Origin: Egicoccus sp. AB-alg6-2
GTDB lineage: Bacteria; Actinomycetota; Nitriliruptoria; Nitriliruptorales; Nitriliruptoraceae
Reading direction: 5' to 3'
Assembly: GCF_041821025.1 (NCBI RefSeq)
Contig: NZ_JBGUAY010000006.1
Span: 186,001 to 250,000, forward strand
Length of the DNA stretch: 64,000 nt
In this document: one piece after another, positions 16,793-54,890 of the stretch
Layout of the letters: each line of letters starts with the position of its first letter
Position numbering within the stretch: position 1 is the stretch's first letter
The notes under the pieces: model-generated
Told to the model about the DNA's origin: nothing
Database searches by the model: none
The model's input: the letters and a program-made list of their open reading frames with translations, nothing else
Made by a program: the position numbers and the translations under genes

Positions 16793-17308
16793 CGGAAGGC
16801 GAAACGCCTCCTGATGCGCTCTGCTGACACGCTAGCGGCGGCGGAGCGGACCCCCCAACGACGGAACGATCAGCGCGCAGACGTCTCACCAGCCGCTCAC
16901 TCCAGCAAGCGACCGCTGACCCATGAGACCCGTTGCCCACGCACGGCCCCGCCCTGCCGCCCCGGCACGGCGTAGCCCCGCCCCCACCTTCGTGCCCCGG
17001 CACGAAAGGTGCACGCCGGCGTACCGGTCCGGGCCGCCCGCGAGTCAACTTTCGGCCTCGGGAACGAAAGGTGGCGGCGCCTGCGCGACCAGTCCCCCGC
17101 CCGGTCCCCACGTTCGGCAGGGGGCACGAAAGATTCCCGCGGCCGGCGAGGCCGACGCTGCCCGGAGCCTTGGCGGACCCCACGTTCGGCTCGGGGGCCG
17201 AACGTGGGCGGCGGGGTGGCCGGTGGGTGGCGGGGGTCGGTCGGTGGACGGCGCGGGTGGTTGGTGTGCGACGGCGGTGGTGCGTGGGCGGCGTGGAGTG
17301 GGTGGTGG
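16793..17308. other. Intergenic region with a palindrome array and a G-rich tract
   Basis: It holds the four-unit palindrome array (16984-17208). From about 17203 to 17308 the plus strand is strongly G-rich with several runs of three to five G, up to the P1-peptidase stop codon. I see no gene. Confidence 0.7.
16984..17208. repeat. Array of four palindromic units, about 62-bp period
   Basis: Each unit is a 26-31 bp imperfect palindrome with a TTCG(T/G)GCC ... GAA(A/C)G core. Units: 16984-17011 (CCTTCGTGCC/GGCACGAAAGG), 17046-17073 (AACTTTCG/CGAAAGGT), 17108-17134 (ACGTTCGGC ... GCACGAAAG) and 17178-17208 (CCCACGTTCGGC/GCCGAACGTGGG, perfect). Core spacing is 62, 62 and 72 bp, while the sequences between units are unrelated. 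The same core and period recur at 54551-54890. Confidence 0.8.
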
Positions 17309-18310
17309 TCAGTGGGGGTCGGCGAGACCGGGGAGGTCGCGGCGTCCGTGGGCGGCGAGGGGTCCGCGCCGGACGGCGTCCGCGACGGCCTCGGCGGCGA
17401 GGTGGGCGACGAGATCGACGGTCGCGTCGACGGTGCCGGTGGCGAGACAGAACAGCGCGTCACCGTCCGATTCGGTGTGCGCCGGTCGCAGCGACCGGGC
17501 GAGGCCGGAGTGGCCGAGGTCGGCGACCCGGTGCGCCTCGCGTTTCGTGAGCCTCGCGTTCGTGACGATGCATCCGATCACGGTGTTGCCGGTCGGCCCC
17601 TCCTCGGCCTTCCCGCCGGCGGCGGCGTCGCCGCCCGGCGGCTGACCTCCGGGCGATTCGTCGTCGGGCGTGCCGAGCGGGCGGCCGTGGGTCGGGAAGC
17701 GGGGCACCTCGTCGGCGACCCGGGCGCGGGCGACCCAGGTGCCGTCGTCCGCGACCACCTCGCCGACGGCGTTGTTGGCGACGATCGCACCGACCGTCAC
17801 GCCGGCCGCCGATCGGACCGCGACGCCCTGCCCACCGCGCCAGGCGTGCTCGAGGCCGGCCACCTTGGCCACCGTGCACCCCGCCCCGACTCCGACGCCA
17901 CCCTCCTGCGGGTCGTCGAGGCTGGCCGCCTCGCAAGCGGCGTATCCCTGGTCCGGGCCGGGCCGGGCAGCGCGGACCGCGACGGCCTCGTCGAGGACGA
18001 TCGCCGCCCCGACGATCGGGACGACGATCCCGCCACGCAGGGCGTAGCCGATCCCACGCTCTTCCAGCCAGCGCATCACGCCGTCGGCGGCCGCCAGTCC
18101 GAACGCCGACCCGCCGCTGAGCAGCACACCGTGGCACACCGTGACCTTGCCGGCCGGGCCGAGGGCGGCGGCCTCGCGGGTCCCCGGTGCGGCGCCGCGC
18201 ACGGCGATCGCCCCGATCGTGCCGGCCGGCGGCAGGATCACCGTGCACCCGGAGACGCCGTCCGGCGACGTCCACGTGCCGACCCGCACGCCCTCGATGC
18301 CGAGCGCCAT
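17309..18310 (-). CDS. P1-family (DmpA/NylC-type) self-processing peptidase or amidase
   Basis: This 333-residue N-terminal-nucleophile hydrolase belongs to the family of DmpA aminopeptidase, beta-peptidyl aminopeptidases and nylon oligomer hydrolase NylC. The GSAFGLAAADGVMRWL helix, GAGCTVAK and the processing region NTVIGCIVTNARLT are typical. By family analogy the chain cleaves itself between N242 and T243, and T243 is the nucleophile. A low-complexity Gly/Pro insert (about 214-238) lies just before that site. The start MALGIEG at 18308-18310 overlaps the stop of the last micro-ORF (TGATG), with GGGGG seven bases upstream. Substrate unknown. Confidence 0.87.
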   Translation of the reverse strand: MALGIEGVRVGTWTSPDGVSGCTVILPPAGTIGAIAVRGAAPGTREAAALGPAGKVTVCHGVLLSGGSAFGLAAADGVMRWLEERGIGYALRGGIVVPIVGAAIVLDEAVAVRAARPGPDQGYAACEAASLDDPQEGGVGVGAGCTVAKVAGLEHAWRGGQGVAVRSAAGVTVGAIVANNAVGEVVADDGTWVARARVADEVPRFPTHGRPLGTPDDESPGGQPPGGDAAAGGKAEEGPTGNTVIGCIVTNARLTKREAHRVADLGHSGLARSLRPAHTESDGDALFCLATGTVDATVDLVAHLAAEAVADAVRRGPLAAHGRRDLPGLADPH

Positions 18311-18460
18311 CAGCGACCCCCGCCGGCGACGTCCCGGCCACGCTCCAGGACCAGCGCCATCAGCGACCCCCGCCGGCGACGTCCCGGCCACGCTCCAGGA
18401 CCAGCGCCATCAGCGACCCCCGCCGGCCCCGGCCCGGCCACGCTTCAGCCGCAGCGCCAT
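18310..18460 (-). repeat. Three 50-bp tandem units, each a 16-codon micro-ORF linked by TGATG
   Basis: On the minus strand the alr stop TGA (18462-18460) overlaps an ATG. Three micro-ORFs follow: 18460-18410, 18410-18360 and 18360-18310. Each encodes MAL(R/V)L(K/E)RGRxxAGGGR and ends in a TGA that shares its A with the next ATG. The last leads into the P1-peptidase ATG (18310). Each unit carries GGCGGGGGTCGC as ribosome site. Units 2 and 3 are identical; unit 1 differs at several bases. The period of 50 is not a multiple of three, so the units cannot be read as one protein. Confidence 0.85.
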
Positions 18461-19605
18461 CAGCGACTCCCGCCTGCGGCGCGGCCGTCGACGAGCGGCA
18501 CGCGCGGGAGCCGTGCCGTCAGCTGGGTCACGATCTCGTAGGTGATCGTGTCGGCGGCGGCCGCCCACTCCTCGACCCGGATCCGGTCGTCGCCCTGGTC
18601 CCCGATCAGAACCGCCTCGTCGCCGACGGCCACCTCGTCGTCACCGCACCACACGAGCAGCTGGTCCATGCAGACCGTCCCGGCGATGGGCCGGCGCACC
18701 CCGCCGACGAGGACCTCGGCGGCATTGGTCAGTGCCCGCGGCACCCCGTCGGCGTACCCCAACGGCAGGGTCGCCACCCAGCCGTCGGCGGGCGCCGACC
18801 AGCGGTGCCCGTAGGAGACGGCGGTCCCCGCAGGCACCCGCTTCACGAACGTCACCTCGGTCACCAGGCGCAGCGCCGGACGCAGCCCGAAGTCGGCGGC
18901 GTCGACGCCGACCGCCGGCGAGAGCCCGTACAGCGCGATGCCGGTGCGCACGAGCTCGCGGCGCGCGGCCGGGTACAACAGCGTGCCGGCGCTGTTGGCC
19001 GCATGGACCCAGACCGGGGCCGGCAGCCCCAGCTTCACGGCCCGGTCGAGGAAGCGGTCGAACGCCGCCAGTTGCACGTCGGTGACGTCGCGGTCCGGTT
19101 CGTCGGCGCAGGCGAGGTGGGTGAAGACGCCCTCGACGCGCAGGCCCTCGGCGGCGACGACCTGGCGCAGCCGGGCGTCCCAATCGGCCTCGGGCACGCC
19201 CACCCGTCCCATCCCCGTGTCGGCCTTGAGGTGCACGGGGACCGGCTCTCCGCGCCCCCGCCCGGCGGCGTCGATCGCCGCGATGAACGGCTCGCGGTAG
19301 ACCGTCGCGGTGAGGTTCGCGTCCAGCAGCGTGGGGATGGCGGCGACCGGCGGCTCGGCGAGGACGAGGATCGGCGCCTCGATGCCCGCACCGCGAAGGA
19401 CCAGCCCTTCCTCGACCAGCGCCACGGCCAACCACGCGGCACCGCCCTCCAGCGCCGCCCGTGCCACCTCGACGGCTCCGTGTCCGTATCCGTCCGCCTT
19501 GACGACGGCGCACACGGCGGCGCCAGCGAGCTCACCGAGGCGTGTCGCGTTGTGGCGGATGGCGGACAGGTCCACCTCGACGCGTGACGCGCGGAAGTCG
19601 TTCAC
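18460..19605 (-). CDS. alr: Alanine racemase
   Basis: This PLP enzyme converts L- to D-alanine for peptidoglycan. The product is 381 residues with the normal fold. The PLP lysine is K36 in VVKADGYGHG, the opposite catalytic base is Y265 in AVSYGHRW, and the TGMGRVG and CMDQ motifs are present. The start is GTG at 19603-19605, overlapping the nnrD stop (GTGA). The C-terminus GRAAGGSR resembles the end of the downstream micro-ORFs, which suggests those units arose by duplication of the alr/P1 junction. Part of a coupled glmS-nnrD-alr-P1 transcription unit. Confidence 0.96.
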   Translation of the reverse strand: MNDFRASRVEVDLSAIRHNATRLGELAGAAVCAVVKADGYGHGAVEVARAALEGGAAWLAVALVEEGLVLRGAGIEAPILVLAEPPVAAIPTLLDANLTATVYREPFIAAIDAAGRGRGEPVPVHLKADTGMGRVGVPEADWDARLRQVVAAEGLRVEGVFTHLACADEPDRDVTDVQLAAFDRFLDRAVKLGLPAPVWVHAANSAGTLLYPAARRELVRTGIALYGLSPAVGVDAADFGLRPALRLVTEVTFVKRVPAGTAVSYGHRWSAPADGWVATLPLGYADGVPRALTNAAEVLVGGVRRPIAGTVCMDQLLVWCGDDEVAVGDEAVLIGDQGDDRIRVEEWAAAADTITYEIVTQLTARLPRVPLVDGRAAGGSR

Positions 19606-21352
19606 GGGCGTTCCCCTGCGGCAACGGCCCCGTCGCCGGCCTCGGCGCGATGGGCGGGAGGCAGCGTGCGCACGCCCGGCGCCGCGGCACGCACCCGCTC
19701 GAGTTCCCCCAACACGGCGGGAAGGGCGTCGAGCAGGTCGACGGCCGTGGCACGCTGGGCCCGGTCACCGCCCGCACGCACCCCGGCGGCGGCGTGCCAC
19801 CACACCGCCTGCGCGACGCGACGCGGCACGTCGTCGTCGTCGGCCGCACCCGCGATCGCCGCGGCGACGATCCCGGCCAACACGTCCCCGGTCCCGCCGC
19901 TGCCGAGTGCCGGCCCCCCGTTCGGGGTCACCCACACCCGCCCGTCGGGCGCGGCGATCATCGTGCCCGGGCCCTTGGCGACCACCGTTGCGCGATAGCG
20001 GGCCGCAAGCTCGGGCACCCGGATCACCCGGTCGGCCCAGGCCTGCTCGCCGTCGCTCCCGCCCCCGATCCGTGCCAGTTCCCGCTCGTGCGGCGTCAGG
20101 ACCAAGGCGCCGCGGTGTTCGGCGAGGGCGTCGTTGTCGTCGCGGTGGACGTTGAGCGCGTCGGCGTCGAGCACCAGTCGGCGGGCGCCACGGCGCAGGT
20201 GGGCCACCACCGCGGCGGCGCCGTCGCCGTGACCGAGGCCGGGACCGGCCACCACGGCGTCGAACCCTTCGAGGTCGGGCAGGGCGTCGACCGCTTCCGG
20301 TGACAGCGCCCCGTCGTCGTCCACCGGCAGGCCACGCACCATCGCGGAGGGGTGGTGCACGGCGACCTCGGCGCGTACCGGTTCGGGCACCGCGACGGTG
20401 ACCAGCCCGGCACCGGCGGCCAGCGACCCGGCGCTGCACAGCGCCGCTGCTCCCGAGGTGCCGACGGCACCGGCGACGACCAGCACCGCCCCGCGTTCGC
20501 GCTTGTCCGCAGCGACGCCCAACGGCTCCGGGGCGGCGCCGTGCGCCGTCAACGCGGTCCAGGTCCCGGTGGGAGCCTCCCACCCGGGGCCGAGGTCGCC
20601 GACCACGACCTCGCCGGCGTGCGCGGCGCCCGGGTGCAGGAGCAGGCCGCGCTTGCGGGCTCCGAACGTCACGGTCAGGTCGGCGACGACCGCCCCGTCC
20701 GGGGCCGCCCCGTCGTCGGAACCGACCCCCGAGGGGACGTCGCACGCCACGATCGGAACGCCCGCCTGTCGGGCCCGCAGCAGCGCGGCCGCCGCCTCGC
20801 CGACCGCCCCACGCGGCGCGCCGGACACCCCGGTTCCGAGCAGGGCGTCGACCGCGACGTCACACCAGTCCAGGGCCGCCTCGAGGTCGTCGAGGTGCCA
20901 CGAGACCCGTCCCCCGGCGGCCACCCAGCGGTCGCGGTTGCCGCCGCTGGCCGCGGACACCTCGACGTCGGCCGGGTGCGACGCGACGATCCAGGCCTGC
21001 GCGCCGTGCGCCGCCAGTCGACGGGCGGCGACCCAGCCGTCACCACCGTTGTCGCCCTTGCCGACCAGGATCGCCACCCGCAGGCCGTACCCCCGGCCGG
21101 CCAGGCGCACGACGGCGCGCGCGAGGTGGCCCCCCGCCCGCTCCATCAGCCCGTCCCACGTGCCGCCTGCCGCCACGGCGGCCTCGTCGCCCGCACGCGC
21201 CCCGGCGGCATCCAGCAGCGGCACCTCCGCGACCTCGCCCGGAGACGGCGCCGCGACCGCACCCCGCAGCGGCACGTCGGTGACCGCGGACCAAACAGGC
21301 CCGACCGCGCCCGCCAGGGCAACGGCCGGGATCCCGCCGGGCGCGGGCCGGC

Positions 21353-30819: not shown

Positions 30820-30867
30820 ATTTGTGCGGCCTACCCCGGGCGTGACCACGGCCTGACCCGCACAAAT
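30820..30867. repeat. Dispersed palindromic repeat, copy 3
   Basis: ATTTGTGCGG (30820-30829) and CCGCACAAAT (30858-30867) form a perfect 10-bp inverted repeat around a 28-base centre with CTACCCCGGGCG. The flanking ATTTGTG/CACAAAT matches copy 4 at 57192. Confidence 0.8.
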
Positions 30868-30870
30868 GCC

Positions 30871-30956
30871 GTCAGACACCGCGCCTGCCGTCCGACACCG
30901 CGCCTGCCGTCCGACACGGCGCCTGCGGTCAGACACCGCTGCGGTCAGACGCCGCG
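30871..30956. repeat. 19-bp tandem repeat beside the truA stop codon
   Basis: Three 19-bp units (starting 30871, 30890 and 30909), then a 16-bp unit at 30928 and a partial one at 30944. Consensus starts GTC(A/C)GACACCGCGCCTGC. The last partial unit covers the truA stop codon, so the final residues of TruA are encoded by repeat sequence. Confidence 0.8.
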
Positions 30957-49773: not shown

Positions 49774-50961
49774 TTACTTGAGGATCTTGGTGACGCGGCC
49801 AGCACCAACGGTGCGGCCACCCTCACGGATGGCGAACTTCAGACCCTCGTCCATCGCGATCGGCTGGATCAACTCCACCGTCATCTCGGTGTTGTCACCC
49901 GGCATCACCATCTCCACACCATCAGGCAACGTGACCGCACCGGTCACATCCGTGGTCCGGAAATAGAACTGCGGCCGATAGTTGTTGAAGAACGGCGTGT
50001 GACGGCCACCCTCTTCCTTGGACAGGATGTACACCTGCGCCTCGAAATCGGTGTGCGGCGTGATCGAACCCGGCGCAGCGAGCACCTGACCCCGCTCCAC
50101 ATCCTCCTTCTTGGTCCCACGCAACAACACACCCACGTTGTCGCCCGCCATGCCCTCATCGAGCAACTTGCGGAACATCTCCACACCGGTCACCGTCGTC
50201 GACGTGGTGTCCTTGAGACCGATGATCTCGATCGTGTCACCCACGTTGACCTTGCCACCCTCGATCCGACCCGTGACCACCGTGCCACGACCCGTGATCG
50301 AAAACACATCCTCGATCGGCATGATGAACGGCTTGTCCAACGCCCGCTCGGGCTCGACGAAGAACTCGTCGACCGCACCCATCAACTCCATGATCGCCGA
50401 CTCGTACGCCTCATCACCCTCGAGCGCACGCAGAGCCGACACCCGAACCACCGGCGTGTCATCACCCGGGAAATCGTAGGAATCGAGGAGCTCACGCACC
50501 TCCATCTCCACCAGCTCGAGCAACTCCTCATCATCGACCATGTCGACCTTGTTGAGCGCCACGATCAACTTGGGCACCCCAACCTGACGCGCCAACAACA
50601 CATGCTCACGCGTCTGCGGCATCGGACCATCCGCCGCCGACACCACCAGGATCGCCCCATCCATCTGCGCCGCACCCGTGATCATGTTCTTCACATAATC
50701 GGCGTGCCCGGGAGCATCCACATGCGCATAGTGACGCGCATCGGTCTCATACTCCACATGCGACACATTGATCGTGATCCCACGCTCACGCTCCTCAGGC
50801 GCCTTGTCGATCGCATCAAACGCCATCGACTGCACATTCGGATTGTGCTTGTGCAACACATTCGTGATCGCCGCCGTCAACGTCGTCTTCCCATGATCGA
50901 CGTGACCAATCGTGCCGATATTCATGTGCGGCTTGGTCCGCTCGAACTTCTCCTTGGCCAT
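49774..50961 (-). CDS. tuf: Elongation factor Tu
   Basis: This GTPase delivers aminoacyl-tRNA to the ribosome. The product is 395 residues. G-motifs [17 protein letters not shown] and NKVDM are intact, with three standard domains and the ending GRVTKIL-K. It lies 87 bp after fusA. Codon use is odd: through most of the gene GTG, TTG, GGT, CGG and GAT are much favoured, whereas fusA and the ribosomal genes favour C-ending codons. The last 15-20 codons return to the local pattern. This hints at replacement of the gene by recombination. Confidence 0.98.
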
Positions 50962-54550: not shown

Positions 54551-54890
54551 CGGTTCTCGTGCCCCGCGCCGAAAATGGGGACGGCAGACGGTGTCGTCGG
54601 CCGCCAGCGTGCCGGTTTTCGTGCCGGGCGCCGAAAGTGGGACCACTGGCGGCGCAGTCGGCCCGCGGCCTGCCGGTTTTCGTGCCGGGCGCCGAAAAGG
54701 GGACCACTGGCGGCGCAGTCGGCCCGCGGCGTGCCGGTTTTCGTGCCGGGCGCCGAAAGTGGGACCACTGGCGGCACAGTCCGCCCGCGGCCTGCCGATT
54801 TTCGTGCCCCGCGCCGAAAATGGGGACTGCAGGTGGTGTCGTCGGCCGCCAGCGTGCCGGTTCTCGTGCTCCCGGCCGAAAGTGGGCGGC
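54551..54890. repeat. Six-unit palindrome array, 61-62 bp period
   Basis: The cores (T)TTTCGTGCC(C/G)(C/G)GCGCCGAAA start at about 54554, 54616, 54677, 54738, 54799 and 54861; spacing is 62, 61, 61, 61, 62. Between units 2, 3 and 4 the intervening sequence (GGGACCACTGGCGGCGCAGT and on) is nearly identical; units 1 and 5 carry a second, related version. The core and period match the array at 16984. Confidence 0.85.

Follow-up and report, generated by a model that had tools for sequence, protein, structure and literature searches.

A tandem array of TGATG-coupled micro-ORFs between alr and an S58 peptidase gene in Egicoccus probably acts as a relay that does little harm

Overlapping stop and start codons are a known means of tying the translation of one gene to that of the next. 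In overlapping gene pairs, coupling was strict in 13 of 14 published tests, and the contribution of the SD ranged from essential to nil (PMC6728339). Mycobacterial repeats called MIRUs contain a small ORF, tied to its neighbors by overlapping stop and start codons, and a review suggests that, thanks to such coupling, a MIRU may be inserted while expression changes little (PMC12548453). Between senX3 and regX3, MIRU units of 77 and 53 bp lie in tandem and their make-up varies between strains; the same intergenic region has promoter activity, as described there (PMC4213456), which cautions that similar arrays may exert effects through transcription. Here we describe a chain of coupled micro-ORFs in Egicoccus sp. 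AB-alg6-2. Our literature search, which covered mostly non-subscription journals, found no description of this locus or of junction-born chains.

We analyzed a 64,000-nt stretch of the genome, called the window below. Within it, alr and an S58 peptidase gene form an operon-like row on the minus strand, separated by three tandem 50-bp units (18462-18313). The features are as follows.

18460..19605, minus strand: alr, alanine racemase (381 aa); its TGA at 18462-18460 overlaps the ATG of micro-ORF 1
18410..18460, minus strand: micro-ORF 1, encoding MALRLKRGRAGAGGGR and a stop; GGCGGGAGTCGC precedes it, at the alr end
18360..18410, minus strand: micro-ORF 2, encoding MALVLERGRDVAGGGR and a stop; GGCGGGGGTCGC precedes it
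18310..18360, minus strand: micro-ORF 3, encoding MALVLERGRDVAGGGR and a stop; its DNA is the same as that of unit 2
17309..18310, minus strand: S58 (P1-type) peptidase, 333 aa; its ATG at 18310 overlaps the last TGA
18303..18478, minus strand: the 50-bp tandem array in full, with the partial copies that extend into alr and into the peptidase gene; TRF score 289

The alr product matched PF01168, PF00842 and TIGR00492, and the gene downstream of the array matched Peptidase_S58 (PF03576), with a MAL start that is common to most relatives read. A preliminary description of this DNA had reported three 16-codon micro-ORFs chained by TGATG, each with its own ribosome site, and had suggested that they probably arose by duplication; our analysis confirmed the chain and supported a tandem duplication. 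TGATG occurs at 18462, 18412, 18362 and 18312 on the minus strand with exact 50-nt spacing, at all four junctions the A that ends the stop is also the first letter of the following start (an overlap of -1 nt), and each unit is an ORF of 16 sense codons plus TGA. TRF indicated a period of 50, 3.5 copies and 92% matches, making the array the second strongest in the TRF table of the window; chance would be very far from producing such a repeat, and its tandem near-identical units would fit a VNTR. Units 2 and 3 are identical; unit 1 departs from them at 7 positions out of 50, which sit in 4 codons and alter the residue in all 4. The encoded peptides are short, Arg/Gly-rich and constant in length.

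Other repeats were observed in the window. A 61-bp tandem array of 5.5 copies lies at 54551-54886 (motif TTTCGTGCC...GCCGAAA), and similar GGCACGAAA and GTTCGGC/GCCGAAC palindromic pieces occur at 16999-17200, past the peptidase gene. Tandem repeats of 19 bp (TGCCGTCAGACACCGCGCC) are found at 30867-30955. The segment at 50380-50533 recurs about 22 kb off on the same contig (C6:258378-258531) and by eye resembles a duplicated tuf gene.

At each junction of the array we found a GGGGGT or GGGAGT stretch whose anti-SD pairing was -9.8 kcal/mol at three sites and -8.3 kcal/mol at the alr/unit-1 site. Among 2,200 positions in the operon region these energies rank in the best 7% and 15%, respectively; SD strength is good, yet unexceptional at about 80% GC. 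The lack of a recognizable promoter near the peptidase gene, implied by the preliminary description, was borne out: a sigma-70 scan of 17000-19900 gave 0 sites (expected mean 0.0), and TA dinucleotides were absent from the 229 nt upstream of the peptidase ATG, as was TANNNT from the 390 nt upstream of it. A promoter belonging to the peptidase gene was rejected on this consensus scan, which leaves room for other promoter types to act. RNA structure and Rfam elements were likewise rejected as explanations, as the fold of the array was average for its composition (z -0.03) and 16800-19700 contained no Rfam match. The 7 positions that distinguish unit 1 from unit 2 all lie in the middle 24 nt, leaving SD and start untouched. 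This clustering, which would count against the reading favored below, corresponds to a fraction of 0.05 counted per site, which is borderline, or 0.29 with adjacent changes taken as one event, and among random variants with 7 substitutions 42% also retain TGATG and the frame. We judged any constraint acting at the ribosome site to be borderline or absent, and constraint on peptide, RNA fold and substitution pattern is not significant.

The idea that the unit was born from the alr/peptidase junction stood for its two ends and not for its middle. The first 10 nt equal the peptidase start (10/10 nt) and the last 16 nt match the alr end at 13-14 of 16 nt, with a shuffle fraction of 0.003-0.008 when the last 30 nt are taken on the alr side. 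No source in either flanking gene could be traced for the 24 nt in the middle (shuffle fractions 0.14-0.76), which would count against a local junction duplication. A genome search found no second copy of the array; the next best match was 32 nt at 84% (E 0.008). We propose that the TGATG junction linking alr to the S58 peptidase gene underwent tandem duplication on more than one occasion. Reading of a copy would begin at the duplicated peptidase ATG, run into the duplicated end of alr and stop at the copied TGA, which would overlap the next ATG, and the SD would have been duplicated along with the unit. Each copy would be a coupled stop-start ORF because the duplicated length of 50 is 2 mod 3.

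We duplicated in silico every 20-120 bp segment across ten real TGATG junctions of relatives. Duplications of 2 mod 3 length yielded a self-coupled micro-ORF in 22,117 of 22,207 cases, and those of other lengths gave a chain in 0 of 44,263. The copied ATG would read the downstream-gene frame first and, at 2 mod 3, then the upstream-gene frame as far as the copied TGA; both stretches stay open because both are coding frames. It follows from this simulated phase rule that about one third of tandem duplications across a TGATG junction must yield a chain complete with SDs, ATGs and TGAs, and the same arithmetic should hold for -4 overlaps. The form of the chain needs no special cause and is less remarkable than its appearance. 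The phase rule is a needed null model for claims about micro-ORFs, given that a third of duplications resemble designed relays, and the array shows how a single step, the duplication of a gene junction, may produce a chain of coupled tiny genes.

The comparison with relatives proposed in the preliminary description was carried out on 61 genomes, of which 50 encode the peptidase, Egicoccus sp. AB-alg6-2 included as the one genome of its species. The peptidase start was read in 41 of the 49 others; the remaining eight were cut by a contig end, matched paralogue-like sequence only, or lay outside the set read. TGATG was present at the peptidase start in 16 of the 41, and alr lay directly upstream in nine (L002, L003, L005, L009, L014, L022, L023, L030, L123), with L014 as an example of the junction without units (alr-TGATG-peptidase). 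In L002 and L003, the genus sisters that could be read, ordinary gaps of 85 and 40 nt precede the ATG and units are absent; in a third sister the contig ends inside the gene. Neither the 50-bp unit nor the micro-peptide was found in any of the 41 relatives read, so the conserved peptide of a regulatory leader is not seen here. A contig-level search returned distant relatives only, 39-47% identical on the best segment, and the chain was present in 0 of the 79 readable (of 80). The repeated-15-mer flag was also raised in L025, L060 and L122, which had no TGATG chains there.

Related duplications were seen elsewhere. In L123, from another family of the same class, the start of the orthologous peptidase gene carries an imperfect duplication of 14 bp (1500-1545), which produces ATG GCG CCC GGC TGA TG, that is, MAPG and a stop, a 4-codon TGATG-coupled ORF 40 nt past the alr stop. 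Its core match of 14/16 was the best of 41 loci, the next best among the other 40 being 12, and the duplication is independent of the Egicoccus array. A scan for SD-ATGA pairs matched 10 of 296 genomes of the phylum and revealed two chains. At L203 (1990-2060) three 5-codon ORFs (MRREL and a stop) are joined by ATGA with a period of 14, and a fourth overruns the start of a phosphorylase-superfamily gene; at L204 (2115-2232) two 14-codon ATGA-joined ORFs, built from repeats 20 and 21 bp long that add up to a composite period of 41, lead into a short-chain dehydrogenase gene. Both chains precede genes unrelated to the S58 peptidase gene. The periods of the chain cases, 50 in Egicoccus, 14 in L123 and L203 and the composite 41 in L204, are all 2 mod 3. 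A second scan of the 296 genomes (7 matched) turned up L212 (1586-1660), where a real ATGA junction is duplicated with a period of 24 (0 mod 3), giving in-frame repeated starts and no chain.

An unbiased scan for SD-ATG pairs, in which no stop was demanded, matched 49 of the 296 genomes, and five loci were judged by eye to be exact tandem copies (periods 24, 45, 24, 41 and 27). Four of these were viewed: three had no gene start at the repeat within the stretch, and the fourth was L212. SD-TGATG triples occurred in 8 of 396 genomes; beyond the Egicoccus array, regular spacings were 39, 24, 24 (3+21) and 7, and two further matches are not repeats. GGAG-TGATG pair patterns were found in 1/66 and 2/66 genomes, none tandem by eye, and these are weak negatives in that the patterns miss the Egicoccus array itself. 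Another of the SD-TGATG triple matches, in G016 (L182, 1490-1565), is a TGATG-rich region with 17-nt spacing (2 mod 3), several 5-codon ORFs and no clear gene start. Selection on phase was unsupported statistically: chains recur, yet other phases occur, as in L212. The parallel cases in L123, L203 and L204 could mean that selection favors such chains, which we count against a nearly neutral reading of the array. A broader proposal is that in actinobacteria arrays of self-coupled micro-ORFs have arisen repeatedly through tandem duplication of start sites, forming a general, locally born and copy-number-variable class that is kept because 2 mod 3 preserves or sets the coupling, with MIRUs as a mobile form; we consider this doubtful.

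The explanation we favor, with rather better than even confidence, is that a coupled junction was tandemly duplicated with its ribosome hand-over intact, creating a lineage-specific and nearly neutral relay that would alter the output of the peptidase little or moderately. Ribosomes leaving alr would be passed from micro-ORF to micro-ORF and then to the peptidase gene, and other ribosomes may initiate afresh at the last SD; both routes can serve the peptidase because each stop adjoins a start and each start has an SD. We infer micro-ORF translation, reinitiation and near-neutrality alike from the sequence, and near-neutrality is preferred because no promoter was found, the fold is average and no significant constraint was detected. 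The preliminary description had instead proposed a translational damper tunable by copy number, in which each hand-over loses ribosomes and the number of units sets peptidase output. This was not supported, and we regard it as unlikely: there are indeed four hand-overs in series, the identity of units 2 and 3 would permit slippage and a promoter-like site was not found nearby, but the SD at every junction makes fresh initiation at the last ATG possible and there is no sign of constraint. If arrays do set output, copy number would offer a simple and evolvable way to tune translation within operons.

Other origins and roles seem less probable still. Many relatives carry a further gene between alr and the peptidase gene, an alpha/beta hydrolase in both loci tested, and the units might be remnants of such a gene, its stop overlapping the peptidase ATG. 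When the micro-peptide was aligned locally with 22 upstream-gene tails, the top score was equalled or exceeded by 2.8% of shuffles for units 2/3 and by 7.8% for unit 1, but the match is to a tail rich in Gly, the set of 22 may include tails of non-hydrolase genes, the gene is missing in both readable genus sisters too, and the MAL start fits the peptidase. With shuffle fractions of 0.028 and 0.078 over the 22 tails we set a hydrolase origin aside as weak, and consider it very unlikely. Regulation through the encoded peptide, as a leader or by arrest, would suit short Arg/Gly-rich peptides of constant length; the change of 4/16 residues between unit 1 and units 2/3, the absence of the peptide in the 41 relatives, the fold z of -0.03 and the lack of an Rfam match in 16800-19700 make it highly improbable. 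There is similarly a very slight chance that the peptidase starts at an upstream in-frame GTG (18391), from which the frame is open, and that the array is its 5' coding end; against this, the relatives use MAL-type starts, and what lies upstream of them is in most cases unrelated. An assembly artefact that collapsed or expanded the repeat might be suspected from the identity of units 2 and 3 in a single assembly of 24 contigs, and would be most surprising: at least two real copies exist because unit 1 differs and both flanks are intact. Together, these considerations suggest that the array is probably a mostly harmless relay, not a proven control device.

Set beside described systems, the array resembles termination-reinitiation pairs of the ATGA/TGATG type in its TGATG with internal SD (within the accessible part of PMC6728339), combining overlapping stop and start codons with an SD upstream of each downstream start (-8.3 to -9.8 kcal/mol). 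In such pairs the upstream partner is a gene, whereas here duplicated 16-codon ORFs stand in series. The bicistronic-design leaders of biotechnology also use a short ORF to deliver ribosomes to the next gene, as far as the available text covers them (PMC12548453); the Egicoccus array is natural, tandem and inside an operon. Like MIRUs, it has a small ORF within a short repeat whose ends overlap neighboring start and stop codons, and its 50 bp, like the 77 and 53 bp reported for MIRUs in the accessible sources, is 2 mod 3. MIRUs are apparently mobile and occupy many loci, whereas the array was found at one locus in the genome. Their overlaps are of -4 nt (ATGA type), in contrast to -1 nt (TGATG) at all four junctions here, and the ends of the Egicoccus unit, unlike those of a MIRU, would derive from the local junction. 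Compared by description, MIRUs appear to be the closest known system, and the Egicoccus array would work alike as a single-locus, locally derived counterpart.
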